Source: an uncultured bacterium (lineage in GTDB: Bacteria > Verrucomicrobiota > Kiritimatiellia > CAIKKV01 > CAIJXV01). From it: a stretch of DNA of 41,410 bases. Of the stretch, positions 9,464 to 40,267 are shown piece by piece. Under the pieces are notes generated by a model that did not search any database, was not told the origin of the DNA, and saw only the letters and a program-made list of their open reading frames with translations. Numbering within the stretch: the first letter of the stretch is position 1; each line of letters starts with the position of its first letter. Location: the NCBI GenBank assembly GCA_903824675.1, contig CAIJXV010000100.1, positions 1 through 41,410 of the forward strand, in the 5' to 3' direction. Position numbers and translations under genes: made by a program.

Positions 9464-10815
9464 CCGCCTCCCGGCTTGAGTTGAAATCCAACCCGGCCCA
9501 CCGGAGCGGCATCCCGCCGTTCGAGGCGGCTCCGATATCCCGCTTCCTCCACCTTCCGGCCCCATCGTTCGCAAGTTTCCCAATCCGACCCGGAACCGAT
9601 AATCGACACCGCAGACCCGTCCAAAGTGACTTCTTCGATCTGAATCGATTGCGCCGCGGCCAGATCGAGGAGCGTCTTCAAAGCGGCCAGAATCGGCGGA
9701 GCCAGAGCCCGTTCAAAGGAAAGTCCGGCCGGACCGCGCGCGAGAACCGCCCGTTCCGCCACCCGGACCTCCACCCCTTTTTCCCGCGTCAGGGAATGTC
9801 CTGCCAGCGCACTGGCCTCGGCGGTGATCTGGCGTTGAAGCCTCTCGTTGGCCCGATCCATTTCATACCGCCACTGGAGATTCAAAGCCACCAGCAAAAG
9901 GGCCACTCCGCCCACCGCCATCCACAGTTGCATCCATCGCCGCGCATGCCGCCGAAGGTGCCGCTCGGCGGTCAGAACACCGGATCGCAAATTGCAGGGC
10001 AAGGCCTCCGGCGCGAGCGCGCGAAAAGCATAGGCGCGAGCCAAAAAGTATTCCGGGCGGTCCACCTCGCGGGACCGTCCCGGAAACAGCGCCTCCAAAG
10101 CGGGTCGACAGGCGCCCATCCCACCGGGCTCCCGCAAGCCCGGTCCGCACCAAATCCATTCAACCGATTCATTCGGCACCGGAATGACCGATTTCAACCA
10201 ATTCACCAAAGCCCCGCCCTGCGGTTGCAAGGTCGAATAGGCCGCCACCCAGGCCGCGCCTCTCCCGACGGCGCAGGTCAACCGATCGTCGCCCGCCAGG
10301 GCGACAATACGCCAGTCCGTCGCCGTTCCCCATTCCTGCCGGGATTGTGTCCAAAGGGCCAGGGCCTCGGAATCCAGGATATCGGGATCGAATCCCGCCG
10401 ACTTCAAATCGTCGATCCGGCGAATGAGGTCTTCCCGCCGGGCGGCAACCGCCAAACCCCGACACGTCCGCGGTGTCGTGCGTTCCATCGCGGCCACGCC
10501 CCATTCACAGGTTTCAAGGGGAAAAGGAAGATCGACATCGAGCAGGGAGGGCAGAACCCTGCGGGCTTTTCCCCGATCGGCCAGCGGTACTTCAATCCAT
10601 CGCGCCAGGCATTCCCGGGGAGATAACCCGGCCGCCACCGCCGGTGCCCCCCGCAATGCGCCAGCCGCCTGGACCGCAGCCGGAAGTTCCAAGGGGGCCC
10701 AAAATCGCCAGGGTCCCCAGCGGAGCGCCCGGACCACCCGGATCGTGCGGCCGCCCGCATCCACGCCCAGGCAGATTCGCCGAACCGCCCATGCCCGTAA
10801 TATTTCAGGGTTCAT
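9460..10815 (-). CDS. GspL/PilM-PilN-like platform protein
   Basis: A 451-residue protein. The N-terminal two thirds look like an actin/ribonuclease-H-like fold as in GspL and PilM (ICLGVDAGGRTIRVVRAL at the start, then PLETCEWGVAAMERT and LKSAGFDPDILDSEALAL). A single transmembrane helix (LWMAVGGVALLLVALNLQW, about residue 295-315) and a periplasmic domain with coiled coil and ferredoxin-like strands (IQIEEVTLDGSAVSIIGS) follow. That is the layout of GspL or a PilM-PilN fusion, linking the cytoplasmic ATPase to the periplasmic platform. It lies between a GspK-like and a GspM-like gene with 4-11 bp overlaps, as in gsp operons. Confidence 0.72.
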   Translation of the reverse strand: MNPEILRAWAVRRICLGVDAGGRTIRVVRALRWGPWRFWAPLELPAAVQAAGALRGAPAVAAGLSPRECLARWIEVPLADRGKARRVLPSLLDVDLPFPLETCEWGVAAMERTTPRTCRGLAVAARREDLIRRIDDLKSAGFDPDILDSEALALWTQSRQEWGTATDWRIVALAGDDRLTCAVGRGAAWVAAYSTLQPQGGALVNWLKSVIPVPNESVEWIWCGPGLREPGGMGACRPALEALFPGRSREVDRPEYFLARAYAFRALAPEALPCNLRSGVLTAERHLRRHARRWMQLWMAVGGVALLLVALNLQWRYEMDRANERLQRQITAEASALAGHSLTREKGVEVRVAERAVLARGPAGLSFERALAPPILAALKTLLDLAAAQSIQIEEVTLDGSAVSIIGSGSDWETCERWGRKVEEAGYRSRLERRDAAPVGRVGFQLKPGGG

Positions 10816-11485
10816 TCAGCCCTTGCTCCAACCAGATTAAAATCCGTGCCGATCCTTTGCCGGATCGAAGAGCATATCCTTCAATTCCAAATTCTCCCTG
10901 CGAAACCACCGCCCGACTCGATACTTGCCAAACGTCCCCGGTAATGCCGCGCAGGGCCAGGGGTAATCGGGACGGCGCTATGGCCAGGGCTTCGCTCCGA
11001 ATCTCCACCCCTCCCGGAGTTGCCGTCCGCTGGGACGTCGCCCCCGCCGGGGCCGTCAACGCCCGGACCTGGTTACAAAACGCATCGGTCGCCACCGCCC
11101 GTAACGCCAGTCGATCCCGTTGTCGTTCGGCTTGTTTCAATCGCACTTGAACCAGGGTCAGGCCATGCACCACGGGACCCGTTAAGAGGGCCAAGAGCGC
11201 CAACACCATCAGCAACGCAAACCCGGCCACTTCCCGCCGTTCCCGCATGCGGTTTCGAATCCATTCGACCAGCACAATCCAGCCATACAACAGGCCGGCC
11301 AGGATCGCCGATCCCAAAAAGCCGATCCCCACTTGATACAGGCGGTCAATCCGCGCCAGATTGCCCCATACGGCCAGAGCGATACCCGCAACCGTGGAAA
11401 GCGAGAGCCAGATTGATAAAATGGTCCGGAGGCGGGTTGAATCCCAGCGATGCCGCCGGCGTTTTCGTCCTGAAGAAGAAGCCAT
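10805..11485 (-). CDS. GspK-like protein with an internal prepilin-type segment
   Basis: A 226-residue protein of odd layout. Residues 18-76 hold two hydrophobic helices; residues 80-103 then read MRERREVAGFALLMVLALLA, which is exactly a type IV prepilin leader (short basic stretch, Gly, Phe, hydrophobic helix) as found in minor pseudopilins such as GspK. Residues 104-226 are a small globular part. Either an N-terminal two-helix module has been fused to a pseudopilin, or translation also begins at the internal ATG at 11248. Gene order K-L-M with overlapping ends supports the assignment to a secretion or pilus system. Prepilin peptidase, GspE and GspD are not nearby. Confidence 0.55.
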   Translation of the reverse strand: MASSSGRKRRRHRWDSTRLRTILSIWLSLSTVAGIALAVWGNLARIDRLYQVGIGFLGSAILAGLLYGWIVLVEWIRNRMRERREVAGFALLMVLALLALLTGPVVHGLTLVQVRLKQAERQRDRLALRAVATDAFCNQVRALTAPAGATSQRTATPGGVEIRSEALAIAPSRLPLALRGITGDVWQVSSRAVVSQGEFGIEGYALRSGKGSARILIWLEQGLNEP

Positions 11486-13669: not shown

Positions 13670-15511
13670 ATGAGCGCTCAAGGGGCAGCCCACATCAAAG
13701 CCATTTGCAAAGCCGCCGGGAACGATCCCGCCCGCTTGATGGATATCGCCATCGCCGTCCAGAAACAACTCGGAGCCGTTTCAGATACGGCCATCGACTT
13801 GATCGCAACGCATCTCAAAATTCCCCGGGTGGATGTCGACAGCCTGGTCACGTTTTACGCTTTTTTCAGCAAAACCCCCAAAGGACGGGTCATCATCCGC
13901 CTCTGCAACGATGTGGTGGACCAGATGAACGGCGCGGCCGAGGTTGCCGCCGCGCTGGAAACCGAACTGGGAATCCGCTTCGGTGAAACCTCACCGGATG
14001 GCGCCATCAGCCTGGAATATGCGCCCTGTATCGGCTTATCCGACCAGGCGCCTGCCGCCCTGATCAACGATGTGCCGGTCACCCACCTGGATTCCGGCAA
14101 AGCCCGCCATCTCGCGCAACTCCTCAAGCGCGAAGGCACCCAGGCGCGCCTCGTCAAAACCTTCGGCGATGGCAATAATGCCCATGATCTGATCCGATCC
14201 ATGGTGGTCAACAATATCCGGGAAACCGGACCGGTCATCCTCGCCCCCTACACTTCCGGATCGGGCTTGAAAAAAGCGTTGGCGCTCTCGCCTGCGGAAG
14301 TCATTCGCGACATCAAAACCTCGCGCCTCCGCGGGCGCGGGGGCGCCGGCTTCCCCACCGGAATGAAGTGGGATTTCACCCGACAGGCCGGAGGCGACCA
14401 GCGGTTCATTATCTGTAACGCCGACGAAGGGGAGCCGGGCACGTTTAAAGACCGGGTCCTGATGACCGAATGTCCGGACCTGATTTTCGAAGGTATGACG
14501 ATCGCCGGATACGCGGTGGGAGCCGCCGAAGGAATCTTCTACCTGCGCGCCGAGTACGCTTATTTGGAGAAGTTTCTCACGGCCATCCTGACCCAGCGGC
14601 GCAAGGCCGGCCAACTCGGCCAGACCATTTGCGGCAAGGCCGGTTTTCATTTCGACATCCGGCTTCAGATGGGCGCCGGCGCTTACGTCTGCGGAGAAGA
14701 AACCGCCCTGATCAGTTCCTGCGAAGGACGCCGGGGTGACCCCAAAAACCGCCCCCCCTTTCCAGCCCAGAAGGGCTATAAGGGATGCCCCACCTCGGTC
14801 AATAATGCCGAAACCCTCTGTTGCGTCGCCCGCATTCTCGAATGCGGTCCGGGCTGGTTTGCGGCCATGGGCACGAAGGGCAGTGCGGGAACCAAACTGC
14901 TCAGCATCAGCGGCGATTGCGCCCGGCCCGGAGTCTATGAAGTCCCCTTCGGCGTCAAGGTTTCCGACTTGCTGAAAAAAGTGGGGGCGGACCATACCGC
15001 GGCCATCCAGGTCGGCGGCCCTTCCGGCCGCATGATCGGCCCCAAGGAATTCAACCGCATCATTTGTTATGATGATCTCTCGACGGGAGGCTCGTTCATC
15101 CTATTCAATAAGGGGCGGAATGTGGTTGATATCGCCCGCCAGTTCATGGACTTTTTCGTTGAGGAAAGCTGCGGATATTGCACCCCCTGCCGGGTCGGCA
15201 ATGTGCTTTTGCGGAACAAGCTGGTCGAAATTCTCGCGGGACATGGGGCGCTGGAAGATCTGGCTTATCTCGAGGAATTAGGCCGGACCACCAAGCTGGC
15301 CAGCCGGTGCGGGCTGGGGCAGACCTCCCCCAACCCCGTCTTATCCACTCTTGAAAATTTCCGGCCGGCCTATGAAGCCTTGTTTAAAAAAAGCCGGGGG
15401 CATGAACCCGTTCTGGCCAACTTCGATCTCCAGGCCGCGCTCAGCCAGGGGTCCATCCTGGCCGGCCGCGCATCATCCATATTCACCCCTGTAAACGGGA
15501 GCCAGCCATGA
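13670..15511 (+). CDS. hoxF: HoxF, NADH-dehydrogenase (diaphorase) subunit of [NiFe] hydrogenase
   Basis: A 613-residue diaphorase subunit that exchanges electrons between NAD(H)/FMN and the hydrogenase module. Residues 1-150 are the NuoE-like domain with only degenerate cluster motifs (RLCNDVVDQMNG and APCIGLSDQAP, two cysteines instead of four), as in Ralstonia-type HoxF. The NuoF part has the FMN/NAD-binding RGRGGAGFPTGMKWD, ICNADEGEPGTFKDR and [19 protein letters not shown]. An SLBB segment and the [4Fe-4S] motif ESCGYCTPCRVGN plus SRCGLGQTSPNP follow. It lacks the C-terminal ferredoxin domain present in the HydB encoded further downstream. First gene of the operon; hoxU overlaps it by 4 bp. 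Confidence 0.97.
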   Translation: MSAQGAAHIKAICKAAGNDPARLMDIAIAVQKQLGAVSDTAIDLIATHLKIPRVDVDSLVTFYAFFSKTPKGRVIIRLCNDVVDQMNGAAEVAAALETELGIRFGETSPDGAISLEYAPCIGLSDQAPAALINDVPVTHLDSGKARHLAQLLKREGTQARLVKTFGDGNNAHDLIRSMVVNNIRETGPVILAPYTSGSGLKKALALSPAEVIRDIKTSRLRGRGGAGFPTGMKWDFTRQAGGDQRFIICNADEGEPGTFKDRVLMTECPDLIFEGMTIAGYAVGAAEGIFYLRAEYAYLEKFLTAILTQRRKAGQLGQTICGKAGFHFDIRLQMGAGAYVCGEETALISSCEGRRGDPKNRPPFPAQKGYKGCPTSVNNAETLCCVARILECGPGWFAAMGTKGSAGTKLLSISGDCARPGVYEVPFGVKVSDLLKKVGADHTAAIQVGGPSGRMIGPKEFNRIICYDDLSTGGSFILFNKGRNVVDIARQFMDFFVEESCGYCTPCRVGNVLLRNKLVEILAGHGALEDLAYLEELGRTTKLASRCGLGQTSPNPVLSTLENFRPAYEALFKKSRGHEPVLANFDLQAALSQGSILAGRASSIFTPVNGSQP

Positions 15512-16233
15512 GCGAAACCTTCGACTTCACTTTGGATGGAGCAACCGTCACCGCCCAATCGGGCGAAACGATCATGCAAGCCGCCGATCGCGCCGGGATT
15601 TACATCCCCCGGCTCTGCGCCCATAAGGAGTTGCATCCCTTCGGCGCCTGCCGGATCTGCACTGTTTTGGTGAATGGCCGGCCCCAATCGTCCTGCACCC
15701 AACCCGCCGCCCCCGGCATCGTGGTCGAAAACGACACCGAAGCGCTGCGCAATGTCCGCAAAAGCCTGGTGGAAATGCTCTTCGTGGAAGGCAACCACTA
15801 CTGCATGTTCTGCGAAAAAAGCGGTCTCTGCGAACTCCAGGCCCTCGGATACCGCTTCGGCCTCCTCGCCCCCCGGTACCCCTACCAATTCCCCAAACGC
15901 GAAATGGATGCCTCCCACCCCGACATCTTCGTCGACCGCAACCGGTGCGTGCAGTGCGCCCGGTGCGTGCGCGCCTCCCGCGAGTTGGACCATAAGACGG
16001 TCTTCGAGTTCTCCGGACGCGGCGCACATAAAGCCATTGCCGTCAATGCCGATGCCCGGCTGGCCGATACCGATGTGAACGGAACCGATCGCGCCATCGA
16101 CGTTTGCCCGGTCGGCTGTCTCCTGCGCAAACGTTACGGATTCCGGACCCCCATCGGCCAACGCAAGTATGACCACCAACCGATCGGTTCCGACATCGAA
16201 GCCGGTCATCCTCCTGCCGCCGTCAACGGTTAA
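15508..16233 (+). CDS. hoxU: HoxU, iron-sulfur subunit of the diaphorase module
   Basis: A 241-residue electron-transfer subunit homologous to the N-terminal part of NuoG. It has a [2Fe-2S] ferredoxin domain (IPRLCAHKELHPFGACRICTVLVNG), the His/Cys-ligated [4Fe-4S] motif GNHYCMFCEKSGLCELQALG and a further cysteine group RNRCVQCARCVRASRELD with DVCPVGCLL. It wires HoxF to HoxY. The ATG overlaps the hoxF stop and is preceded by GGGAG. Length is normal for HoxU of group 3d [NiFe] hydrogenases. Confidence 0.96.
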   Translation: MSETFDFTLDGATVTAQSGETIMQAADRAGIYIPRLCAHKELHPFGACRICTVLVNGRPQSSCTQPAAPGIVVENDTEALRNVRKSLVEMLFVEGNHYCMFCEKSGLCELQALGYRFGLLAPRYPYQFPKREMDASHPDIFVDRNRCVQCARCVRASRELDHKTVFEFSGRGAHKAIAVNADARLADTDVNGTDRAIDVCPVGCLLRKRYGFRTPIGQRKYDHQPIGSDIEAGHPPAAVNG

Positions 16234-16247
16234 CCCGAAAGGACCTT

Positions 16248-16796
16248 ATGGCTGCCAAACCCAAAGTCGCCACGGCTTCCCTGGCCGGTTGTTTCGGTTG
16301 TCACATGTCGATCCTCGACATCGACGAACGCATTCTCGATCTGATCGAACTTATCGATTTCGACAAGTCGCCGATCGATGATCTTAAGGAATTCACCGGG
16401 CGTTGCGCGATCGGATTGATCGAAGGCGGTTGTTGCAATGAGGAAAATGTCCGCAACCTGATTGAGTTCCGCAAACATTGCGACCTTCTCATTTCGGTCG
16501 GCGAATGCGCCATCTGCGGCGGCATCCCCGCCTTGCGCAATACGCTCCCCCTCCAGGAGTGCTTTGATGAGGCCTATAAACACGGCCCCACGGTCTACAA
16601 CCCCTCCGGGCAATATCCCAACGATCCGGACCTGCCGCTCATTCTCAACAAGGTATATCCCTGCCACGAAGTGGTCAAAATCGACTACCATCTCCAGGGC
16701 TGCCCCCCTTCCGCCGACACCATCTGGGCCGCCTTGACGGCCTTGTTGACCGGCAAGCCGGTGCAACTGCCTTACGAATTGATCAAATACGATTGA
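16248..16796 (+). CDS. hoxY: HoxY, [NiFe] hydrogenase small subunit
   Basis: A 182-residue cytoplasmic small subunit carrying a single proximal [4Fe-4S] cluster. The ligand motifs are SLAGCFGCHMS, EGGCCNEENV, VGECAICGG and QGCPPSADTIW. No twin-arginine signal and no medial or distal cluster domain, as expected for the soluble bidirectional class. AAAGGA is five bases before the ATG. Sits between hoxU and hoxH with 12-14 bp gaps. Confidence 0.97.
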   Translation: MAAKPKVATASLAGCFGCHMSILDIDERILDLIELIDFDKSPIDDLKEFTGRCAIGLIEGGCCNEENVRNLIEFRKHCDLLISVGECAICGGIPALRNTLPLQECFDEAYKHGPTVYNPSGQYPNDPDLPLILNKVYPCHEVVKIDYHLQGCPPSADTIWAALTALLTGKPVQLPYELIKYD

Positions 16797-16808
16797 GGAG
16801 CCGCTTTC

Positions 16809-18269
16809 ATGGTCAAAACCACTCATCCTCGAAAAATTATCATCGAACCCGTCACCCGGGTCGAAGGCCACGGAAAAGTCACCATCCTGCTCGACGAACA
16901 CCGGAAGGTGCAGCAGGCCCGGTTGCATATCGTCGAATTCCGCGGCTTCGAAAGATTCATCCAGGGCCGCCCCTATTGGGAAGTCCCGGTCCTCGTTCAG
17001 CGCCTGTGCGGCATCTGTCCCGTCAGCCATCATCTGGCCGCCGCCAAGGCGATGGATTTGATTGCCGGAGTCGATCAACTGCCGCCCACGGCTGAAAAAA
17101 TGCGGCGGTTGATGCACTACGGCCAGATGTTCCAATCCCATGCGCTGCATTTCTTCCATCTCGTGTCACCCGATCTGTTGTTCGGGTTCGATGCCGATCC
17201 CGCCATTCGCAATGTGATCGGAGTCGCACGCCAGTTCCCCCATCTCGCCGTCCAGGGCGTTATGATGCGCAAATATGGGCAGGAACTGATCAAGGCCACC
17301 GCCGGCAAAAAAATCCATGGAACCGGCGCCATTCCCGGCGGCATCAATAAAAATCTGTCGATCGCGGAACGGGATGAATTCCTCAAGGACCTCGATCAGA
17401 TGCTCAAATGGTCGCGCGAATCCGTCGCCCTGGCCAAGGAATACACCGTCACCCATCTGAAAGAACTGGTGGATTTCGGATCCTTTGAGTCCAATCATTT
17501 CGGTCTGGTTCGCAAGGATGGCGCGATGGATCTGTATCATGGCAACCTGCGCGCGATCACCGCCGATGGCCAAAAGATTTTCGATCAGGTCGACTACCAG
17601 ACCTACGCCGATTATCTCGCGGAGGAAGTCAAACCCTGGTCCTACATGAAGTTCCCCTTTATCCAGTCGTTGGGCCCCGATCGGGGATGGTATCGGGTCG
17701 GCCCCCTGGCCCGTATCAACACCTGTGACTTCATCGACACGCCGGAAGCCGAGGGCGCCCGGCAGGAATTGATGGCCCTCACCCAGGGCAAGCCGAACAA
17801 TATCACCATGGCCTACCACTGGGCCCGAATGATCGAACTCTTGCATTCCATCGAAAAAATCAAGGACCTGTTGCATGATCCGGACCTGCAAGGCGTCGAA
17901 CTGCGCGCCCAGGGCCGGACCCGCCGTAGCCATGCGGTGGGCATGATCGAAGCCCCCCGGGGAACGCTCATCCATGACTATGAAGTTAACGAGCAGGACC
18001 AGGTTACCCGCTGCAACCTGATCGTCTCCACCACCCATAACAATACCCCGATGAACCGGGCGGTTGAAAAAGTGGCCCGGGATTTCCTGAGCGGAACCGA
18101 AGTCACGGAAGGGCTGTTAAACCGTATCGAAGTCGCCATTCGAGCCTATGACCCCTGCCTTTCCTGCGCCACCCATGCGATGGGGCGGATGCCCCTGACC
18201 GTGGAAATTCAGGACGCGCAGGGCATACGGGTCCATCGCCGGACCCGGGGAGTGGACCCGGATGTCTAA
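16809..18269 (+). CDS. hoxH: HoxH, [NiFe] hydrogenase catalytic large subunit precursor
   Basis: A 486-residue precursor of the catalytic subunit that reversibly oxidises H2. The four nickel-iron ligands are all present: RLCGICPVSHH (Cys67, Cys70) and DPCLSCATHAMG (Cys450, Cys453). The proteolytic maturation site follows His456, leaving a 30-residue C-terminal extension to be removed by the protease encoded next. RVEGHGKV near the start is the usual L0 motif. The site and operon content place it in the NAD-coupled bidirectional group 3d. Hyp maturation proteins needed for the cofactor are not in the window. Confidence 0.98.
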   Translation: MVKTTHPRKIIIEPVTRVEGHGKVTILLDEHRKVQQARLHIVEFRGFERFIQGRPYWEVPVLVQRLCGICPVSHHLAAAKAMDLIAGVDQLPPTAEKMRRLMHYGQMFQSHALHFFHLVSPDLLFGFDADPAIRNVIGVARQFPHLAVQGVMMRKYGQELIKATAGKKIHGTGAIPGGINKNLSIAERDEFLKDLDQMLKWSRESVALAKEYTVTHLKELVDFGSFESNHFGLVRKDGAMDLYHGNLRAITADGQKIFDQVDYQTYADYLAEEVKPWSYMKFPFIQSLGPDRGWYRVGPLARINTCDFIDTPEAEGARQELMALTQGKPNNITMAYHWARMIELLHSIEKIKDLLHDPDLQGVELRAQGRTRRSHAVGMIEAPRGTLIHDYEVNEQDQVTRCNLIVSTTHNNTPMNRAVEKVARDFLSGTEVTEGLLNRIEVAIRAYDPCLSCATHAMGRMPLTVEIQDAQGIRVHRRTRGVDPDV

Positions 18270-18744
18270 ACGGTTACTGATCCTGGGTTACGGTAATCCC
18301 GGCGGCCTGGATGACGGTCTGGGCCCCGCTTGTGTCGAGGCGCTTCGATCGTTCGATCTTCCGGATGTCACCTTGGAATCGGATTATCAGTTGACGGTTG
18401 AAGACGCGGCGCTGGCCGCAGAACATGAGGTCGTGGTGTTTGTCGATGCCACGGTCGCCGGTCCGGAACCGTTTGATTTTTTCGAAGTCCAGCCGGCTGA
18501 AACCTTAAGCTTCAGTTCACATGTCGTCGAACCGGGCGCCGTGATCACCCTGGCCGAATCGCTGTTCGGCGCCCGGATACACGCGTTTACGCTGGCCATC
18601 CGAGGGTATCAGTTCAATGAATTCGGTGAATACCTTTCGCAACAGGCCCGGAATAATCTGGCGGCCGCCGTCCAATTTCTGGCGCCGTTAGCCCGATCGC
18701 ACACCCTTCCGACGGCTCTGAAACCTAAAGCGAGGATGAATTGA
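18262..18744 (+). CDS. hoxW: HoxW, hydrogenase large-subunit maturation endopeptidase
   Basis: A 160-residue protease of the HyaD/HybD/HoxW family that cleaves the C-terminal peptide of HoxH after nickel insertion. The family start LILGYGNPGGLDDGLGPACVEAL carries the first acidic nickel-contacting residue; FVDATV supplies the second Asp and SSHVVEPG the His. Overlaps hoxH by 8 bp with GGGAG upstream, so the protease is made together with its substrate. Confidence 0.93.
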   Translation: MSKRLLILGYGNPGGLDDGLGPACVEALRSFDLPDVTLESDYQLTVEDAALAAEHEVVVFVDATVAGPEPFDFFEVQPAETLSFSSHVVEPGAVITLAESLFGARIHAFTLAIRGYQFNEFGEYLSQQARNNLAAAVQFLAPLARSHTLPTALKPKARMN

Positions 18745-29305: not shown

Positions 29306-30502
29306 TCACCCCGCCGCAGCGGCCAGCGCCAAAGCCCGTTCACCCAACAACCGGCCGGCGACCCGACATTCATCCAAAATCGCCGCATCCGGCGCGTAAT
29401 TCGATAACAAAGGTTCCCGTACCAGGTCAACTTTCATTTGCTTGAGGATTTCCGACACCTCTTGCGCTCCGTTTTTGCCCCAGCCGTAGGAACCGAAGGC
29501 GAAACCGGATTTGCCCACCGGGCGCAATCCCTTGAGATAGATCAACCCCGCCCCGACTTCCGGCATCATCCCCATGTTCAACGTCGGGGTGCCCACCGCC
29601 AGACAAGCGGCGTCAAGAATTTCGGTCGCCTGCAAGGTGATATGATCCGTCCGGGCTTTCAGCAACGTCACCGTCACACCCGGCAGGGCCGCGCCATCCA
29701 CAATCGCCAGGGCCATGGCCTCCGTACTTCCCCACATGGAATCGTAAAGTACCACCACCTTGGCCTTGGGCTTGCAGACCGACCAATCCCGGTAAGCCTG
29801 GACAATCTCCCCCACCTGGTTACGCCAGATCAACCCATGACTGGGTGCGATCATCTCGATCGGAAGTCCCGCCGCACGGTCCAACACCTTGGTCACCTGC
29901 TTGCCATACAGCATGATGATATTGGCGTAATACGTCCGGGCTTCCGCCATCACCACTGATAGATCGTCCTGGTCGTCAAACCGGTGAACCGTGGCATAGT
30001 GCTGGCCGAAAACGTCCATGGAAAACAGGAGCTTTTCCTCCACCACATACGTGAACATCGATTCCGGCCAGTGGGCCATCGGGGTATCGATGAACTTGAG
30101 CGTGTTGCGCCCCAGCGACAGGGTCTGACCGTCGGAAACCGGCTTGACCTTCCAATCCGCCCCCCCCTGGTACCGCCGCAGAGTGTCCAGACATTTGGCG
30201 TTACAGACTAATTCCGCCCGCGGACAGGCCTTCAAGACCTCCGTCAGTCCACCGGCATGATCGGGCTCGGCATGATTGCAGACCACATAATCGATCCGGG
30301 CGGGATCGACGATTTCCGAAATCATCGCCAATAAATGCCCCGCATAGGGTGATTTGACCGTGTCGATCAGGGCAATCTTTTCGTCTACGATCAGATACGC
30401 GTTATAGGTCGACCCCCGGTCGGTCAGATAGCCGTGAAAATCCCGGATGGACCAATCCACGTGGCCCACCCAATAAATACCTTTGCGCAATTCCGTTGTC
30501 AT
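29306..30502 (-). CDS. flavodiiron protein (O2/NO reductase, FprA type)
   Basis: A 398-residue two-domain enzyme that reduces O2 to water, or NO to N2O, protecting oxygen-sensitive enzymes such as [FeFe] hydrogenase. The N-terminal metallo-beta-lactamase domain has the diiron ligands NHAEPDHAGG (His77, Glu79, Asp81, His82), an MAHWPESMF His, SMDVFGQH Asp and APSHGLIW His. The C-terminal flavodoxin domain binds FMN (VVLYDSMWGSTEAMA, VGTPTLNMGMMP, GSYGWGKNGAQ). No rubredoxin domain is fused, so an external electron donor is needed; the nearby nitroreductase is a possible but unproven link. Divergent from the ceramidase-like gene, about 1.8 kb from rex. Confidence 0.97.
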   Translation of the reverse strand: MTTELRKGIYWVGHVDWSIRDFHGYLTDRGSTYNAYLIVDEKIALIDTVKSPYAGHLLAMISEIVDPARIDYVVCNHAEPDHAGGLTEVLKACPRAELVCNAKCLDTLRRYQGGADWKVKPVSDGQTLSLGRNTLKFIDTPMAHWPESMFTYVVEEKLLFSMDVFGQHYATVHRFDDQDDLSVVMAEARTYYANIIMLYGKQVTKVLDRAAGLPIEMIAPSHGLIWRNQVGEIVQAYRDWSVCKPKAKVVVLYDSMWGSTEAMALAIVDGAALPGVTVTLLKARTDHITLQATEILDAACLAVGTPTLNMGMMPEVGAGLIYLKGLRPVGKSGFAFGSYGWGKNGAQEVSEILKQMKVDLVREPLLSNYAPDAAILDECRVAGRLLGERALALAAAAG

Positions 30503-32171: not shown

Positions 32172-32189
32172 TTGACAAACTTTTAACGA
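32172..32189. promoter_or_regulatory. Rex-like operator in the rex promoter
   Basis: TTGACAA-ACTT-TTAACGA matches the Rex consensus TTGTTAA-N4-TTAACAA at 11 of 14 positions. Its right half TTAACG is the same as in the stronger site upstream of hoxF. It covers the -35 box and half the spacer of the promoter, where bound Rex would exclude RNA polymerase. Confidence 0.7.
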
Positions 32190-32200
32190 TTTGAAATAGT
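32172..32200 (+). promoter_or_regulatory. promoter of the rex-hydCBAS-spoIIE operon
   Basis: TTGACA (32172-32177) is a perfect -35; after 17 bp comes AATAGT (32195-32200), a four-of-six -10. Located about 70 bp before the rex ATG and overlapped by the operator. Confidence 0.65.
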
Positions 32201-32268: not shown

Positions 32269-32919
32269 ATGAGTGAACGGCCTTTGATGGTGATCCCTCA
32301 GCCCACGTTGAAACGGCTGGTCGTCTATCACCAATGGCTCAAGCAGTTGCAGGAACGGGGACGCGACGTCGTCTCCTGTACCGTGCTGGCCCGCGATTTC
32401 AAACTGGATGCAACCCAGATTCGCAAGGACCTCGAAATCGCCGGCATCGCCGGAACCCCCCGGGTGGGCTACCGGATCGACGCCGTCATCGCCTCCATCG
32501 AAAGCCTTCTGGGCTGGACCAATGTCAACGATGCCTTTCTGGCCGGGGTCGGAAACCTGGGGGCTGCTCTCCTCGGATATGAACGATTCACCCGGCAAGG
32601 CGTCAACATCATCGCCGCCTTCGATCTCGACCCCGCGAAAATCGGCACCAAGATTCACGGCAAACCGGTTTTCTCCCTGACCAAAATGGCGCCCCTCGCC
32701 CAGCGGATGAAAATCAAAATCGGCATTTTGACCGTTCCGGCCCCGGCGGCTCAAACCGTCGCGGACCTCATGATCGCCGGGGGAATCGAAGCGATCTGGA
32801 ATTTTGCCCCCACCGCCTTGCAGGTCCCGGAGCCCATCGTGGTCGAATCCGTCTCCCTGGCCTCCAGTTTCGCGGTACTCCTCAATCAATTGCAACATCA
32901 ACGCCACAAGACCACCTGA
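32269..32919 (+). CDS. rex: Rex, NADH/NAD+-sensing transcriptional repressor
   Basis: A 216-residue repressor. Residues 1-80 form the winged helix (IPQPTLKRLVVYHQWLKQL, VVSCTVLARDFKLDATQIRKDLEIAGI), and the rest is a Rossmann domain that binds NADH or NAD+ (FLAGVGNLGAALLGYERF, AAFDLDPAKIGTKIHGKPVF, IGILTVPAPAAQTVADLMIAGGI). NADH release from DNA turns fermentative and hydrogenase genes on when the pool is reduced. It is the first gene of the hydrogenase operon with a matching operator in its own promoter, so autoregulation is likely. Confidence 0.97.
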   Translation: MSERPLMVIPQPTLKRLVVYHQWLKQLQERGRDVVSCTVLARDFKLDATQIRKDLEIAGIAGTPRVGYRIDAVIASIESLLGWTNVNDAFLAGVGNLGAALLGYERFTRQGVNIIAAFDLDPAKIGTKIHGKPVFSLTKMAPLAQRMKIKIGILTVPAPAAQTVADLMIAGGIEAIWNFAPTALQVPEPIVVESVSLASSFAVLLNQLQHQRHKTT

Positions 32920-32930
32920 AAGGACTGACC

Positions 32931-33437
32931 ATGCCCCTCCCGCTTCCCAATCGATTTGATCGTGTGTGTAAAATCCTGGATGACCATGACCGCAATCCCG
33001 CCCACCTGATTCCCATCCTGCAGGCCGTTCAGGACGAATACCGCTATCTCCCGGAGGAGATCATGGTTTATGTCGCCACCTCCCTGGGACTCCCGCCTGC
33101 CCGGGTCTATGGGGTCGCCACCTTCTACTCGCATTTCGCCCTGGAACCCCGGGGCAAATACATCATTCGCCTTTGTGATGGAACGGCTTGTCATGTCAAA
33201 GCTTCGATCCCCATTCTGGAAGCGCTGCAACGCCGCCTCGATCTCACCCCCCAACGCAAAACCACACCCGACCTCAGATTTACCTTGGAAACCGTTTCCT
33301 GCCTCGGCGCCTGCGGGCTGGCTCCGGTCCTGGTCATTAACGAGGAAGTGTATGGGCAAGTCACACCCGCCCGGGCGATAGAATTGGTCGAAGCCTTAAT
33401 TGCAAAGGAGAGTCCGCATGTCACCGCAAATGCCTGA
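32931..33437 (+). CDS. hydC: HydC, NuoE-like [2Fe-2S] subunit of trimeric [FeFe] hydrogenase
   Basis: A 168-residue thioredoxin-like electron carrier of the NuoE family. Helical N-terminus (LIPILQAVQDEYRYLPEEIMVYVATSLGLPPARVYGVATFYSHF) and all four cluster ligands: LCDGTACHVK and SCLGACGLAPVLVIN. It shuttles electrons between HydB and HydA. Complete ligands distinguish it from the degenerate NuoE domain of HoxF. Overlaps hydB by 20 bp. Confidence 0.96.
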   Translation: MPLPLPNRFDRVCKILDDHDRNPAHLIPILQAVQDEYRYLPEEIMVYVATSLGLPPARVYGVATFYSHFALEPRGKYIIRLCDGTACHVKASIPILEALQRRLDLTPQRKTTPDLRFTLETVSCLGACGLAPVLVINEEVYGQVTPARAIELVEALIAKESPHVTANA

Positions 33438-35310
33438 TCTCGTCGCCCTGACAAAAAATTATGCAATCAATCGCCAACGGGTCCGTCGCCGGGTCCTGAT
33501 TTGTGCCGGAACCGGCTGCATCGCCAATGGCGCCCTCAAGGTTTATGACCGCCTCTCCACCGTCGCTCAGAACGCCGGTTTGCCGGTCGCGATCGACTTA
33601 AAGGCCGAGGCCCCCCAGGACGCCACCCTCTTTTCCAAAAGCGGGTGCCAGGGATTCTGCCAGATGGGACCGTTGGTCTCCATCGAGCCGGAGGGATTTC
33701 TCTACCTGCGGGTCAAGCCGGAAGATGCGGAAGACATCGTGTCGCAAACCCTGGCCAACGGGCTCCCCGTGGAACGCCTGCTCTATCGGGAGGAGCCCTC
33801 CGGCCAGACCCGACGAGGGGCCGGGGATATTCCTTTTTATGCCCGTCAAACCCGGGCGACGTTGAAAGCCTGTGGATTGATCGATCCGGAGGATATCCGT
33901 GAATACATCGCCCAAGGCGGCTATGCGATGGCCCGTAAAGCCCAGTTGGAATTGACGCCGGAAAATCTGTGCCACCTCCTGGAGCAGGCGGGATTGCGGG
34001 GGCGCGGAGGCGGCGGATTCCCGACGGGTAAAAAATGGAATCTCACCCGCATCCAACCCGGCGTCCCCAAATATGTCATCTGCAATGGCGACGAAGGAGA
34101 TCCCGGTGCGTTCATGGATCGCAGTGTGATGGAGGGCAATCCCCACAGTGTATTGGAAGGCATGATGATTGCCGCCCGGGCCGTGGGCGCCGAGGAAGGT
34201 TTTATTTATGTCCGGGCCGAATACCCGTTGGCCGTCAAACGCATTCGCCAGGCCATCCGCGATGCGGAAGCCCTGGGTTTGCTCGGCCCCTCCCTCTGGG
34301 GTACCCATCACGCGCTCAAATTGAAGGTCATGGAGGGTGCCGGCGCATTCGTCTGTGGTGAAGAAACCGCGCTCATTGCCTCGATCGAAGGCAAACGCGG
34401 CATGCCGATGCCGAAACCGCCCTTCCCCGCCCAGTCGGGTTTATGGGGCAAACCCACGGTCATCAATAATGTCGAAACCCTCGCCACCGTGCCCTTGATC
34501 CTGGCCCAGGGAGTGGAGGCCTATCGGTCAGTGGGAACGGACCGATCGCCGGGCACCAAAACCTTCGCCCTGACCGGGCATGTCGCCTATACCGGCCTGA
34601 TTGAGGTGCCGTTCGGCAGTACGTTGCGCGATATCATCTATTCGATCGGCGGCGGGGTCACGGGCGCCACGGGTCTGGTTGAGTCCGACGCCTTCAAGGC
34701 CGTTCAAATCGGGGGACCGTCCGGCGGATGCCTGACCACCGCCCACATGGACCTGCCGCTGGACTTCGACGCCCTCAAATCGGTGGGCGCGATGGTGGGT
34801 TCCGGCGGACTGGTGGTGATGAACAAGCACACCTGCATGGTCAGTGTGGCCCGTTTTTTCATGCAATTCACCCAGAACGAATCCTGTGGAAAATGTGTGC
34901 TCTGTCGCGAAGGGACCCGGCAAATGCTGGTCTTGCTCGATGACATCATCGAAGGCCGCGCCACGGCGGAAACGCTGGACCTGCTCCAAACCCTGGCGAA
35001 AGCCGTTCAAGTCGGATCCCTCTGCGGTCTGGGTAAAACCGCGCCCAACCCGGTGATCTCCACCTTCCGCCAATTCCGGGCGGAATACGAGGCGCACGTT
35101 TTCCACAAACGGTGCCCGGCCGGCCAGTGTAAGTCTCTTTGCCCGCCCACAATCACGGCCGCCCTGTGCAAAGGTTGCACGGCCTGTGTGCGCAAATGTC
35201 CCGTCGGGGCCATCACCGGCGAGAAAAAACTGCCGCATCGAATCGATCCGGCAAAGTGCATCCAGTGCGGCGCCTGCAAAACAGCCTGCAAATTCAACGC
35301 CATAACCTGA
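33418..35310 (+). CDS. hydB: HydB, NuoF-like NAD(H)/FMN subunit with extra iron-sulfur domains
   Basis: A 630-residue flavin subunit. N-terminal [2Fe-2S] thioredoxin-like domain ([23 protein letters not shown]), NuoF core with [29 protein letters not shown] and [23 protein letters not shown] segment, [4Fe-4S] motif [16 protein letters not shown], and a C-terminal 2[4Fe-4S] ferredoxin domain ([32 protein letters not shown]). In bifurcating HydABC this subunit splits electrons between NAD+ and ferredoxin; the C-terminal ferredoxin domain favours a bifurcating rather than NADH-only enzyme, but does not prove it. The ATG at 33418 has AAGGAGA upstream; a start at 33400 is less likely. Confidence 0.95.
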
Positions 35311-35320
35311 GGAAACACCC

Positions 35321-37357
35321 ATGACTCCCGCCCTCCCCGGCCAGCTCTTAATCGATGGAAAATCGGTTGCCATCGAAGGTGAACGCAACTTGTTGGAACT
35401 CATTCGCAAAGCGGGCATCGAATTGCCCACGTTTTGTTACCATTCCGAATTAAGTGTTTACGGCGCTTGCCGCCTATGCCTGGTCCAGGTCGAGGGCCGC
35501 GGCATCCTGCCCGCCTGTTCCACCCCGCCCGAGACCGGACTGTCGATCCGGACCGCCACCGAGGAAATCCGCCAGATCCGGCGCCTGATCGTCGAACTCC
35601 TCCTGGCTCAACATCACTCGCAATGCCCCACCTGCGGAAAAAGCGGGGGGTGTCAGCTCCAATCTCTGGCGCGGCGGCTTGGTGTGGACTCAGTCCGTTT
35701 CAAACCCGTTCCCCGCCTCCCCACGCCGGACCGGTCGACGCCCTCCCTCGTCCGCGACACTTCCAAATGTATCCTATGTGGCGACTGCGTGCGGTATTGC
35801 GCGGAAGTCCAGGGGATCGGCGCGATCGATTTCGCCTACCGCGGCGCACAGTCCGCCGTGGTCCCGGCCTTTAATAAACCGCTCAGCGATGTCGAATGCG
35901 TCCTCTGCGGTCAATGCGCCGCCATCTGCCCCACCGGTGCCCTGACGCCCCGCAGTGAACTGCCCGAGGTCTGGAAAGTTTTGGATGATCCCACCCGGCA
36001 TGTGGTCGTTCAACTCGCCCCGGCGGTCCGGGTCGCCTTGGGCGAGCAATTTGGCCTCGAACCCGGCACAGTCACCACCGGTCAAATCGTCGCCGCCCTG
36101 AAGGCGCTCGGTTTCGCAGAAGTTTACGACACCGCTTTTGCCGCGGATTTGACGGTGATTGAAGAAGCGGAGGAATTCCTGAAACGCAAAGGCGGCGGCG
36201 GATCCTTGCCCCAATTCAGTTCCTGTTGCCCGGCCTGGGTGAAATTTGCCGAACAGTATTATCCCGATCTGCTGCCCCATTTATCCACCTGCCGGTCGCC
36301 CCAGCAAATGCTCGGGTCCCTGGTCAAAGCCACTCTGCCTGCGCGGCTGAAAATCGACCGTCAAAACCTGGTCATGGTTTCGATCATGCCTTGCACGGCT
36401 AAAAAATTCGAGGCCCGTCGCCCGGAATTTAAAACCAACGACCAGCCGGACGTGGATTTTGTCCTGACCACCCAGGAACTGGCCCGCATGATCGAAGAGC
36501 GGGGCTTGTCGTTCACCCGCCTGGAACCCGCGTCCATGGATATGCCCTTCGGCTTCAAAACCGGCGCCGGAGTGATTTTCGGAAGTTCCGGCGGGGTCAG
36601 CGAGGCCGTCCTGCGCTATGCCCTCGAAAAGGTCCCGGGCGTCAAAGGCGATGCGATCGAATTCCAGGAAACCCGCGGCGATGCCGAGCGGCGAGTGGTG
36701 ACGGTCGCCTGTGGCGATCAACAATTAACCCTGGTAATCGTGAGCGGATTACGCAAGGCCCGGGAAGTGGCGGAAGAGATCAAATCCGGGGCCCTGAAGG
36801 CCGACTTCATCGAAGTCATGGCCTGTCCCGGCGGTTGTGTCGGCGGCGCCGGCCAACCTCTCTCCCGGTCCTCTGAAGCCCGACGCAAACGCAGTCGGGG
36901 TCTCTACGATACCGATCGCATGCTGGAACTGCATAAAGCCCAGGATAATCACCTCGTCAACCGCTGCTACCAGGAGGTTCTCCACGCCCCGGGCAGTCAC
37001 GAGGCCCACGACTTGTTGCATACCGTCTACCATAGCCGGCGCCGGATCAACCAGGAGAACCTGCGTTTATCGGATTCCCCGCCCACCCAGCCGGTGACCG
37101 TCCGAATTTGTGTCGGCACCAGTTGCTACCTGCGGGGCGCCCAGGAGTTGCTCCGCGACGTCAACCGGTTCGTGACCGATCGCCAACTGGCCGAGCGGGT
37201 GGATGTCCGCGCGACCTTTTGCCTGGAAGCCTGCGATCGCGGCCCTACCGTCCGCATCAATGAAAAAATCCTGCACCGGGCCGATCTCGGTCAGGTGATT
37301 AAATCCATTGAGGATATCCTGGAAGTCCTGACCCCCCTTCCGGCGGGATCAACCTGA
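35321..37357 (+). CDS. hydA: HydA, catalytic subunit of trimeric [FeFe] hydrogenase (group A3 type)
   Basis: A 678-residue catalytic subunit making or oxidising H2. Domain order: [2Fe-2S] ferredoxin (Cys39, 50, 53, 66), His-Cys3 [4Fe-4S] motif ([14 protein letters not shown], residues 98-111), two [4Fe-4S] clusters ([11 protein letters not shown] 150-160, [11 protein letters not shown] 193-203), then the H-cluster domain with P1 FSSCCPAW (Cys302 proton-relay, Cys303 ligand), P2 MPCTAKKFE (Cys358) and P3 [16 protein letters not shown] (Cys502, Cys506). A small-subunit-like segment (about 520-575) and a C-terminal [2Fe-2S] domain ([16 protein letters not shown]) complete it, as in Thermotoga-type HydA. 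All residues for catalysis are present. HydEFG maturases are not in the window. Confidence 0.98.
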
Positions 37358-37364
37358 GGCCCCC

Positions 37365-39143
37365 ATGACCGATCACCCTCGATCCAGTCCGGTGGTCTTC
37401 ACTCAGCCCGCACGTTGCCGGGATTGTTACCGGTGCGTCCGGGTATGCCCGGTGAAGGCTATCCGAATGCATGATGGGCAGGCCTCCGTCGATGCGGAAC
37501 GGTGCCTGGGATGCGGCACGTGCATCCGGGAATGCCCGCAACAGGCCAAGGCTTTCCGATCGGATATCGACCGGGTACGCATACTCCTGCGCGCCGGCGG
37601 CCCGGTTGCCGCCACGGTCGCGCCCGCTTTGGCCGCGGCGTTCGAGCCCTGGCAGATCCTGCGCCTGCCCTCCGCCTTGCGCGCCCTGGGCTTCACCTTC
37701 ATCGCCGAAACCGCCGTCGGCGCCGCGGCCACAGCCCGCGCTTCGGCGGATTGGATCCAGGCCCACCGCACGAATTCACCACTCATCACCGCCTGCCCCG
37801 CCGTCGTGCGCTGGATCGAACGCTACCAGCCCGATGCCGTCCCCCGCCTGATCCCGGTCGCCTCGCCCATGGCGATTCACGGCCGGCATCTGAAACGCCG
37901 CCTGGGCCCCCACGGCCGCGTGGTCTTTATCGGACCCTGCGTCGCTAAAAAACTCGAAATCGAACGCCTCGATGTCCGCGATGCGATCGATGCCGTCCTG
38001 ACCTTTCGCGAACTCGCCGAGTGGATGCAGGAGGAAAAAATCGATTTCCGGCGTTGTGAGGAAAGCCAGTTCGACGAGAGCGCCGAAGCCCTGCCCCGCC
38101 ATTTTGCCCGCGTGGGCGGCGCTCTCCATGCCGCGGGATTGTCAGAGAAAGATACTGAACCTCAAATCATCTCGGTCAGCGGTTATGAAGATCTGGCGGA
38201 AGCTCTGACGCCCAACGGCTCCCCGCCCTCTCCCGGTGTGGTCATCGAACCGCTCTTCTGTCGGCAGGGCTGCCTCAATGGCCCGGCCGGTCCGGCCGAT
38301 CTCCCCCTGCTCAAACGAAGGCACCGGCTGCAAATCTATACGGAACAAGGCCCTTCCGGTCCGCTGGGACAGGTGGACCCGACGGTATCGACCGGTGCCG
38401 CTTTTGCCGCGCAACCTGTTTCCCGGATGGTGTTCTCCGAAGAGGATCTGCGCCGGGTCCTGGCCCAAACCGGGAAAACCCGGCCGGAAGATGAGTTAAA
38501 CTGTGGAGCCTGCGGATATCCCTCCTGCCGCGAAAAAGCCCGGGGTGTTCTGGAGGGACTGGCGGAACCCGCCATGTGTATCCCCTTCACCCGCCGCCAG
38601 GCAGAACAACGCACCGACCGGATCATTGAAACCAGCCCCAATGGCATCGTGATCCTGGACGCCGACCTGCGCATCCTCAGTATGAACCCGGCCTTCCGCC
38701 GCTTTTTCATGTGTACCGATTCCGTTTGTGGGAAGCCCATCGCCTACCTCATCGACCCCGACTTGTTGGACCCATTGGCCACGGGCGCGCTGGAATTCAA
38801 CGAACGGGTTGCGACCCATGAGGCCTACGGATTGGTCTGTCATGAGTTATTTTATGCCCTGCGCGACGAAAGGCAATATGTCGGGATTTTTGTCAATATC
38901 ACCTCCCTCCAAACCCATCATGAAAAACTGCAGTCGTTGCGTGCCCAGACCCTGCAACAGGCGGAAGACCTGCTGGAACATCAATTGCAGATGGCCCGGC
39001 AGATCGCCGAATTTCTGGGAGACAGCACCGCCAAAGGCGAGATGCTGGTCAATCACCTGCGCACGCTCGCATCGGATTCCACCGACTCCGAACCCGAACA
39101 GAACAATAGTCCATGGCGCAAACGCTTCACCATTTCGAAATAG
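37365..39143 (+). CDS. hydS: HydS-like sensory [FeFe] hydrogenase with PAS domain
   Basis: A 592-residue putative H2 sensor. Two N-terminal [4Fe-4S] motifs (CRDCYRCVRVC 18-28, CLGCGTCIREC 47-57); an H-cluster domain with LITACPAVV (Cys144), FIGPCVAKK (Cys192) and FCRQGCLNGP (Cys299, Cys303); a four-cysteine Fe-S domain (CGACGYPSC, 380-388, and Cys405); a PAS domain (about 415-515) and a C-terminal coiled coil. The four H-cluster cysteine ligands remain, but the proton-relay cysteine is Ala143, a change typical of sensory group C enzymes with low turnover. No kinase or cyclase output is fused, so the PAS/coiled coil must act on a partner, most simply the phosphatase encoded with a 31-bp overlap. 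Seven bases after hydA. Confidence 0.9.
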   Translation: MTDHPRSSPVVFTQPARCRDCYRCVRVCPVKAIRMHDGQASVDAERCLGCGTCIRECPQQAKAFRSDIDRVRILLRAGGPVAATVAPALAAAFEPWQILRLPSALRALGFTFIAETAVGAAATARASADWIQAHRTNSPLITACPAVVRWIERYQPDAVPRLIPVASPMAIHGRHLKRRLGPHGRVVFIGPCVAKKLEIERLDVRDAIDAVLTFRELAEWMQEEKIDFRRCEESQFDESAEALPRHFARVGGALHAAGLSEKDTEPQIISVSGYEDLAEALTPNGSPPSPGVVIEPLFCRQGCLNGPAGPADLPLLKRRHRLQIYTEQGPSGPLGQVDPTVSTGAAFAAQPVSRMVFSEEDLRRVLAQTGKTRPEDELNCGACGYPSCREKARGVLEGLAEPAMCIPFTRRQAEQRTDRIIETSPNGIVILDADLRILSMNPAFRRFFMCTDSVCGKPIAYLIDPDLLDPLATGALEFNERVATHEAYGLVCHELFYALRDERQYVGIFVNITSLQTHHEKLQSLRAQTLQQAEDLLEHQLQMARQIAEFLGDSTAKGEMLVNHLRTLASDSTDSEPEQNNSPWRKRFTISK

Positions 39144-40267
39144 CCCAGGCCCAGCAAGCTCCTCCGCACGCTTCGGTCTGCGGCGATGTAGTGCGCATCG
39201 AGCGGACCGCTGAAGCTGTGTGGATGATCTGTTGCGATGGAGTGGGAAAAGGGGTCAAGGCGCATATCGCGGCCGTCATGACCGCCACCCGTTTCCTGAC
39301 ATTGGTCCGATTGGGAGGGTCGTTTCGCGAGGCCCTCCTGGCGCTGGCGGAAACCCAGGCGGCCGCCAAATTGGGACCGGTCCAAACTTATACCGCCTTT
39401 TCGGCCTGCCGGTTATCTCCCGATGGAACGGCGGCGGTCGGGGTTTACGAAGCACCCGGCCCGGTTCAAGTCGGCCCCTTCGGCGCAGGAGAAATCCCCC
39501 TCAAACCGTATGTCGGTCGCCAGGCCATGATCGCCGAGGGACATTGCCGTCTGATGCCGGGAGAGGCCTTAATCCTGATGAGCGACGGCATCACCCAGGC
39601 CGGCTTGGGCCGAAAGTGGGCCAATGGATGGGAAACCCAGGGGGTCGTTCGATATCTTTCCGGCCTGCTCGGCAGCGGCGTTCCGATGGATGATCTGCCG
39701 ACCCGTTTGATCGATCAAGCCGGCCTCCTGAATGACAACGGACCCGCCGACGACATGACGGTCAGTCTGGCGCATTGTCGCCGGGCAACCCTCTTGACCG
39801 TCTTGACCGGTCCGCCGCAAAAACGATCCGATAACGGAAAAGTGGTTCGCCGCTTCACGGGAACCGAAGGTTTAAAGGCGGTTTGCGGAGGCACGACAAC
39901 GGAAATCGTCGCTCAGGAAATGAAATGCCCCGTGAAAGTCGTGCTCTCCGATGATTTCGATCTGACCCCGCCTGCATCCCAAATCGAAGGGATCGAGGTG
40001 GTCACCGAGGGCGTCATCACGTTGAACCAGGTCTATCACCTGCTGGAAGTCGATCCCACCTTGTGGGAAGAAGGCGGCGCCCCGGCATTGGCCCGCCTAT
40101 TATTATCTGCCGACCGAATTGAATTCTGGCTGGGCGGCGGCGAAAGCCGCGCCAGTAATGGGATTCGATTTGCCCAGCGGGGCCTCATGCCTCGCCGTAA
40201 AATTGTGCCCCTGATCGCCGCCCGCCTGCAAGCCCGCGGTAAAATCGTCACCCTGCTGACCGTCTAA
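39113..40267 (+). CDS. SpoIIE/PP2C-type phosphatase with unrecognised C-terminal domain
   Basis: A 384-residue protein. Residues 1-222 are a PP2C-like SpoIIE phosphatase domain with metal-binding acidic residues: GDVV (Asp25), CDGVGKG (Asp42), MSDGITQAG (Asp158) and GPADDMTVSLA (Asp213/214). It should remove phosphate from serine or threonine of a partner protein. Residues 225-384 form a separate domain (EGLKAVCGGTTTEIVAQEM, GIEVVTEGVITLNQVYHLLEVDP) that I do not recognise. The start overlaps hydS by 31 bp without a ribosome site, suggesting translational coupling. The same pair, sensory hydrogenase plus phosphatase, is known beside HydABC in Firmicutes and Thermotogae. No kinase or anti-sigma factor is nearby. 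Confidence 0.85.
   Translation: MAQTLHHFEIAQAQQAPPHASVCGDVVRIERTAEAVWMICCDGVGKGVKAHIAAVMTATRFLTLVRLGGSFREALLALAETQAAAKLGPVQTYTAFSACRLSPDGTAAVGVYEAPGPVQVGPFGAGEIPLKPYVGRQAMIAEGHCRLMPGEALILMSDGITQAGLGRKWANGWETQGVVRYLSGLLGSGVPMDDLPTRLIDQAGLLNDNGPADDMTVSLAHCRRATLLTVLTGPPQKRSDNGKVVRRFTGTEGLKAVCGGTTTEIVAQEMKCPVKVVLSDDFDLTPPASQIEGIEVVTEGVITLNQVYHLLEVDPTLWEEGGAPALARLLLSADRIEFWLGGGESRASNGIRFAQRGLMPRRKIVPLIAARLQARGKIVTLLTV

Follow-up and report, generated by a model that had tools for sequence, protein, structure and literature searches.

The window, a stretch of 41,410 nucleotides that makes up one contig of a 4.24-Mb draft assembly in 124 contigs, carries six genes in the order rex-hydC-hydB-hydA-hydS-phosphatase, all on the forward (+) strand and either separated by gaps of 7–11 nt or overlapping. 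The first gene of the operon, rex (32269–32919), encodes an NADH/NAD+-sensing repressor (NCBIfam NF003994, E=1.8e-81, above cut-off), and is followed by hydC (32931–33437; PF01257, E=1e-50) for a thioredoxin-like [2Fe-2S] subunit and hydB (33400–35310; PF01512 and PF10589) for a NuoF-like FMN/NADH subunit, the start codon of which is uncertain. The hydA gene (35321–37357) encodes the catalytic subunit of a group A [FeFe]-hydrogenase with a NuoG-like N-terminus, which lies above the cut-off of TIGR02512 and matches NF040763 with E=6.8e-213, yet falls below the cut-off of the latter model. The last two genes, which overlap by 31 nt, are hydS (37365–39143), encoding a putative sensory [FeFe]-hydrogenase of group C3 type (592 aa), and the gene of a SpoIIE/PPM-type protein phosphatase (39113–40267; 384 aa) paired with HydS.

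A promoter-like site (TTGACA-17-AATAGT with TG; 32172–32200, + strand) lies 5' of rex, although the consensus scan returned 5 sites against 2.8 expected and thus lends it weak support. The tight gene spacing and this site fit a single transcript running from rex to the phosphatase gene. No match to the Rex operator consensus TTGTGAAANNNNTTCACAA was found 5' of rex, and lineage-specific operators may differ from this consensus. An earlier sequence-only reading of the locus had NADH and H2 both read out within one transcript; the gene order fits this claim and recurs in ten other loci (L048, L049, L055, L056, L060, L061, L063, L066, L067 and L069), and the joint read-out itself is what we infer from the arrangement. 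About 14 kb away from the rex-hydABC operon, the window encodes another H2-linked enzyme, a [NiFe]-hydrogenase (13670–18741). Its operon codes for a subunit in which NuoE- and NuoF-like parts are fused, a ferredoxin subunit resembling NuoG, the small and large subunits, which come nearest to Vhu-type models, and a maturation protease. Upstream of the rex operon, on the minus strand, lies the gene of a flavodiiron-type protein (29306–30502; ODP lactamase plus flavodoxin).

Domain make-up and active-site residues of HydS

HydS contains two 4Fe-4S motifs (residues 14–61; 37404–37547; PF13237), the H-cluster domain (residues 81–307; 37605–38285; PF02906, Fe_hyd_lg_C, E=4e-46), a third 4Fe-4S motif between the H-domain and PAS (residues 378–407; 38496–38585; PF04060, E=4.5e-10) and a PAS domain (residues 416–523 in Pfam; 38613–38933 for residues about 417–523; PF13188, PF00989 and PF13426), behind which a helical tail is conserved in relatives. 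The earlier description of HydS as ending in PAS and a coiled coil is borne out for PAS, the coiled coil being a putative one. Alignment with the amino acid sequence of HydA from the window identifies the four H-cluster ligands, whose retention had also been claimed, as C144, C192, C299 and C303, and these cysteines are kept in 68–69 of 69 HydS relatives. In the same alignment A143, G190 and L297 replace the proton-relay cysteine and the two framing methionines, which rules out a group A identity for HydS.

Ala143 (codon 37791–37793) does pair with the relay cysteine of HydA, but the weight placed on this replacement in the sequence-only reading is not upheld, since alanine is the commonest residue at the relay position of published sensory [FeFe]-hydrogenases (about 43%, with cysteine at 17%; PMC10055695), and the 69 full-length relatives carry cysteine (38), alanine (21) or serine (7) there. 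Alanine is typical of the loci that most resemble the window (e.g. L047, L049, L053–L057 and L059–L061), and by these comparisons Ala143 is an ordinary residue for sensory [FeFe]-hydrogenases. TmHydS of Thermotoga maritima, which likewise has alanine at the relay position (A131), glycine at the M353 position, a PAS domain and an operon shared with another hydrogenase, still turns over H2 with Ala131 (PMC10055695); it differs at the M497 position, which is serine in TmHydS and leucine in the window HydS.

The conserved tail (residues 520–578; 38922–39098), with the consensus of about QMxxAQEIAxLLGExTAETKxxLxKL (x represents any amino acid), is a candidate phosphatase-coupling helix. A profile of this region, run against all reading frames of the loci at E<0.05, matched only PAS partners of the phosphatase, including four PAS proteins that lack the H-domain (L083, L124, L127 and L128), and the tail may accordingly be regarded as the putative element coupling HydS to the phosphatase. 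Two of the PAS-only partners adjoin NADH-dehydrogenase-like subunits, one of them together with a CO dehydrogenase. On a Planctomycetota chromosome (L083:8613–17250), the phosphatase module without hydrogenase domain consists of a ferredoxin, a [2Fe-2S] protein, a PAS-only protein with the HydS tail and the phosphatase. Beyond the PAS-phosphatase pair lie genes resembling hydC and hydB, one for a ferredoxin/NuoG-like subunit and one for an anaerobic CO dehydrogenase that scores above the TIGR01702 cut-off. In the window's phylum, L128:6726–9500 and L127:6476–8592 each encode a PAS-only partner with the tail plus the phosphatase, preceded by a rex gene in L128. Because such partners exist, H2 would not be the input of the module everywhere.

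The phosphatase and its C-terminal domain

The phosphatase comprises a PPM catalytic domain (residues 5–224; 39125–39784) and a C-terminal domain of 160 residues, and the AlphaFold2 model of the whole protein has a pLDDT of 91.5. Pfam identifies SpoIIE at residues 34–221 (PF07228, E=9.5e-12), in agreement with the earlier assignment of the overlapping gene to the SpoIIE type, and in VIA-align comparisons the catalytic half is similar to PPM phosphatase structures, namely to 3pu9 (Z 25.0, rmsd 2.8, 216 residues) and to SpoIIE 5ucg (Z 24.4, rmsd 2.8, 215 residues). The PPM metal-binding motifs D25, D42-G43, D158-G159 and D213-D214 are intact and are kept in 117 of 118 rows of the alignment. By predicted fold and aspartate motifs, the enzyme is a SpoIIE/PPM-type phosphatase and is predicted to act on proteins. 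The protein itself lacks a sensor domain and in this differs from RsbU and RsbP of Bacillus subtilis, whose activation is driven, or predicted to be driven, by coiled-coil linkers (PMC12143880). These enzymes share the SpoIIE-like PPM domain with the window protein, and RsbP also has a PAS domain, whereas the PAS domain and helix of the window system reside on a separate protein, an additional C-terminal domain is present and no STAS gene is found nearby.

The sequence-only reading had described the last 160 residues as matching no known domain. This holds for Pfam, which gave no match above threshold for residues 225–384 (39785–40264) and no significant match for the same region of 65 relatives; the region is however not peculiar to the window protein, as it forms a conserved domain present in every phosphatase relative examined. 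Among the matches listed for a domain profile run on 115 genomes of the phylum, all lie in phosphatase frames. In L097 a frame of 154 codons (10553–11014) with the C-terminal domain alone adjoins a HydA2-like gene and is possibly a remnant copy.

Modelled alone, the C-terminal domain adopts an alpha/beta fold with a pLDDT of 90.9. A sequence profile search of the PDB gave no significant match, Foldseek gave none at E<=0.001, and hhalign gave none against a Molybdopterin profile of just 5 rows. The top structures in VIA-align are E. coli NuoG (Z 10.0, rmsd 3.7, 119 residues), FhcABCD (Z 9.8, rmsd 3.1, 115 residues) and the formylmethanofuran dehydrogenase complex (Z 9.0, rmsd 3.5, 123 residues), with identities of 9–12%, while other Rossmann-like folds form a background at Z 5–6, slightly under these scores. 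As the NuoG-type scores stand above this background, the modelled domain may well share its fold with the NuoG/formylmethanofuran-dehydrogenase domain, the similarity being weak and common descent conjectural. The near-invariant motifs GPP (residues 233–235), GGTT (259–262), TEG (298–300) and G341 sit at, or just past, strand ends in the model, a placement that by analogy resembles that of ligand sites in such folds. The probable role of the domain is to bind either a small ligand or the phosphatase target. A more specific and rather doubtful proposal is that it is a second sensor, perhaps of a nucleotide or an electron carrier, built on a NuoG-type fold, with the PAS-tail protein and the phosphatase together forming an exchangeable coincidence detector; such a detector would integrate a gas or redox signal with that of a metabolite and thereby gate enzymes linked to H2, CO and NADH.

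Genomic pairing and exchange of the output module

The phosphatase family was found in 78 of the 289 genomes sampled from the phylum and HydS matches in at least 92 of them. At least 92 of the 98 phosphatase matches in this sample have a HydS match no more than 1.2 kb away, and the other 6 have no neighbouring HydS among the HydS matches listed; in two genomes of the same genus, HydS and the phosphatase are on separate contigs. Relatives of the phosphatase are encoded in no fewer than 553 stretches across all bacteria, the best 80 of which are the named loci and derive from Bacillota, Planctomycetota, Omnitrophota, Fervidobacterium, Spirochaetia, Bacteroidales and others. HydS adjoins the phosphatase in nearly all of these 80 loci, in many phyla, and a small thioredoxin-like [2Fe-2S] gene is located beside HydS in 37 of them. 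In a Gracilibacteraceae MAG (L064:9345–11140), rex is directly followed by the phosphatase gene with no HydS.

Among the matches listed, 16 HydS matches have no phosphatase neighbour, and many of these end near query residue 411–419 in frames of at least 668 codons. The Pfam check of these matches covered L139, from the same phylum, in which rex-hydCBA directly precedes a HydS fused to HisKA and HATPase_c behind the FeS motif, next to a response regulator receiver (REC) gene. Judged by domain content, the output is thus exchangeable, as L139 has the histidine kinase-linked design of [FeFe] group C1 in the place that PAS and the phosphatase occupy in the window. Group C1 shares the H-domain and FeS region with the window HydS, and in L139 the operon position, but its fused HisKA-HATPase output with a REC neighbour differs from a phosphatase.

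By the features tested, namely the H-domain, PAS and adjoining phosphatase, the window pair belongs to a known, barely studied type, [FeFe] group C3, which HydDB names 'phosphatase-linked (putative)' (PMC5037454). In this group a Ser/Thr phosphatase neighbours a sensory-type [FeFe]-hydrogenase, for which H2 sensing has been proposed, and the window member differs in its position after rex-hydCBA. Relatives of the pair are known from two other settings. HfsB and HfsC of Thermoanaerobacterium are a HydS-type PAS hydrogenase and a neighbouring serine phosphatase with a regulatory deletion phenotype, but they are encoded with HfsA and the HydA2-like HfsD, whereas the window has rex and a hydABC of bifurcating type. 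In Ruminococcus albus, HydS combines H-cluster and PAS domains in a cluster with a putative Ser/Thr phosphatase and H2-responsive expression, but is clustered with AdhE and a ferredoxin-only hydrogenase.

Proposed signal path, alternative explanations and phosphatase target

HydS and the phosphatase probably work together as an H2/redox sensor pair of the [FeFe] group C3 type, an explanation supported by their pairing, the restriction of the tail to phosphatase partners, the kinase swap in L139, the intact PPM motifs and the lack of a sensor domain in the phosphatase itself. HydS would bind H2 at the H-cluster, and the resulting change would pass via the extra 4Fe-4S motif and PAS to the helical tail, which would work in trans on the SpoIIE/PPM switch helices in place of the N-terminal linker of RsbU and RsbP. 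The phosphatase would then dephosphorylate a regulator that tunes hydrogenase and fermentation genes, and Rex, from the same operon, would read NADH alongside this H2 branch. A path from H2 through PAS to protein dephosphorylation had been put forward in the sequence-only reading; its architecture is well supported, with the class itself already named.

The sign of the response can be carried over from clostridial genetics. In T. saccharolyticum, deletion of hfsB (HydS type) raised ethanol yield, adhE transcript and hydrogenase activity, and deletion of hfsC (phosphatase) gave no ethanol rise (PMC5707799); the hfsC result is not clean because the deletion slightly lowered hfsD expression (PMC5707799). 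The R. albus cluster with AdhE, a hydrogenase, the sensory HydS and the phosphatase is regulated in an H2-dependent manner (PMC6776011). The simplest common reading of the two data sets is that HydS keeps the phosphatase in check in the absence of H2 and frees it when H2 is present, which by analogy is conceivable and somewhat doubtful for the window's organism. No biochemical evidence of a physical HydS-phosphatase link was found in the literature for any organism.

It is possible, but unlikely, that the module senses redox state (the ferredoxin or NADH pool) through its Fe-S motifs and PAS, with the H-cluster serving for electron entry or surviving as a relic and H2 not being the physiological signal. 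The PAS-only partners, which retain the tail and the phosphatase and in two cases lie beside NADH-dehydrogenase-like subunits, the recurrent [2Fe-2S] gene next to HydS and the replaced relay cysteine are all consistent with redox sensing, but a relic would lose the H-cluster ligands, which nearly every relative keeps, TmHydS turns over H2 with the same alanine, and the R. albus responses track the H2 level. The least probable alternative, and a very unlikely one, is that HydS works as a catalytic hydrogenase with low activity while the phosphatase acts on its own, operon history alone having paired the two: the activity of TmHydS and TamHydS is measurable (PMC11376134) and the two genes lie on separate contigs in the two same-genus genomes, but the pairing spans many phyla and several operon layouts, the tail is common only to phosphatase partners and a kinase takes over in L139.

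A third proposal, compatible with the sensor-pair explanation, concerns the target, which in a classical partner switch would be a STAS anti-anti-sigma factor, dephosphorylated by the phosphatase and opposed by an RsbW-type kinase encoded elsewhere. STAS proteins are the usual substrates of SpoIIE/RsbU-type phosphatases (PMC11418112), but such a switch is distinctly improbable here. As the earlier reading had stated, no kinase, STAS or anti-sigma gene adjoins the pair in the window; neither a STAS substrate nor an RsbW-type kinase, the features of an Rsb partner switch, is found at the pair or recurs within 10 kb of the 80 relatives, where the only recurring kinase, STAS or anti-sigma family is an APH/RIO-like kinase of gut Clostridia. 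The window's own genome has three STAS matches, one inside a SulP-like transporter (named by its sequence) and two in small proteins that each lie beside another SpoIIE phosphatase, so that no orphan STAS target is seen with the two STAS models used. Eight Hanks-type kinase matches occur in this genome, seven above cut-off and none on the window's contig, and no opposing kinase can therefore be singled out.

The APH/RIO-like kinase gene is located upstream of the [2Fe-2S]-HydS-phosphatase module in gut Clostridia (13 loci by clustering, 17 by profile, i.e. L084:6896–7657 and 16 others), and most of the encoded proteins contain the motifs HGDxxxxN and DW. From its position this kinase is a candidate opponent of the phosphatase in gut Clostridia, not in the window. 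The gut loci carrying it are related to R. albus, for which Zheng et al. suggested a neighbouring Ser/Thr kinase, as reported in PMC5707799, whereas a sequence search of the window's own genome, run without a positive control, gave no relative of it.

Returning to the H2/redox sensor pair, the features new here are the family-wide C-terminal domain, the tail motif shared with PAS-only partners, the relative in which a fused kinase takes the phosphatase's place in the operon and the operon order in ten other genomes; the group C3 literature covered, to which subscription papers may add, gave no description of the C-terminal domain, the tail motif or the PAS-only variants. The mechanism of signal transduction by sensory [FeFe]-hydrogenases is unknown according to PMC11376134, and the tail, the PAS-only partners, the kinase fusion of L139 and the C-terminal domain provide handles on it, pointing to a likely phosphatase contact site and to a domain that may bind a second ligand or select the target. 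Control of fermentation by H2 is relevant to rumen methane and to ethanol-producing thermophiles.
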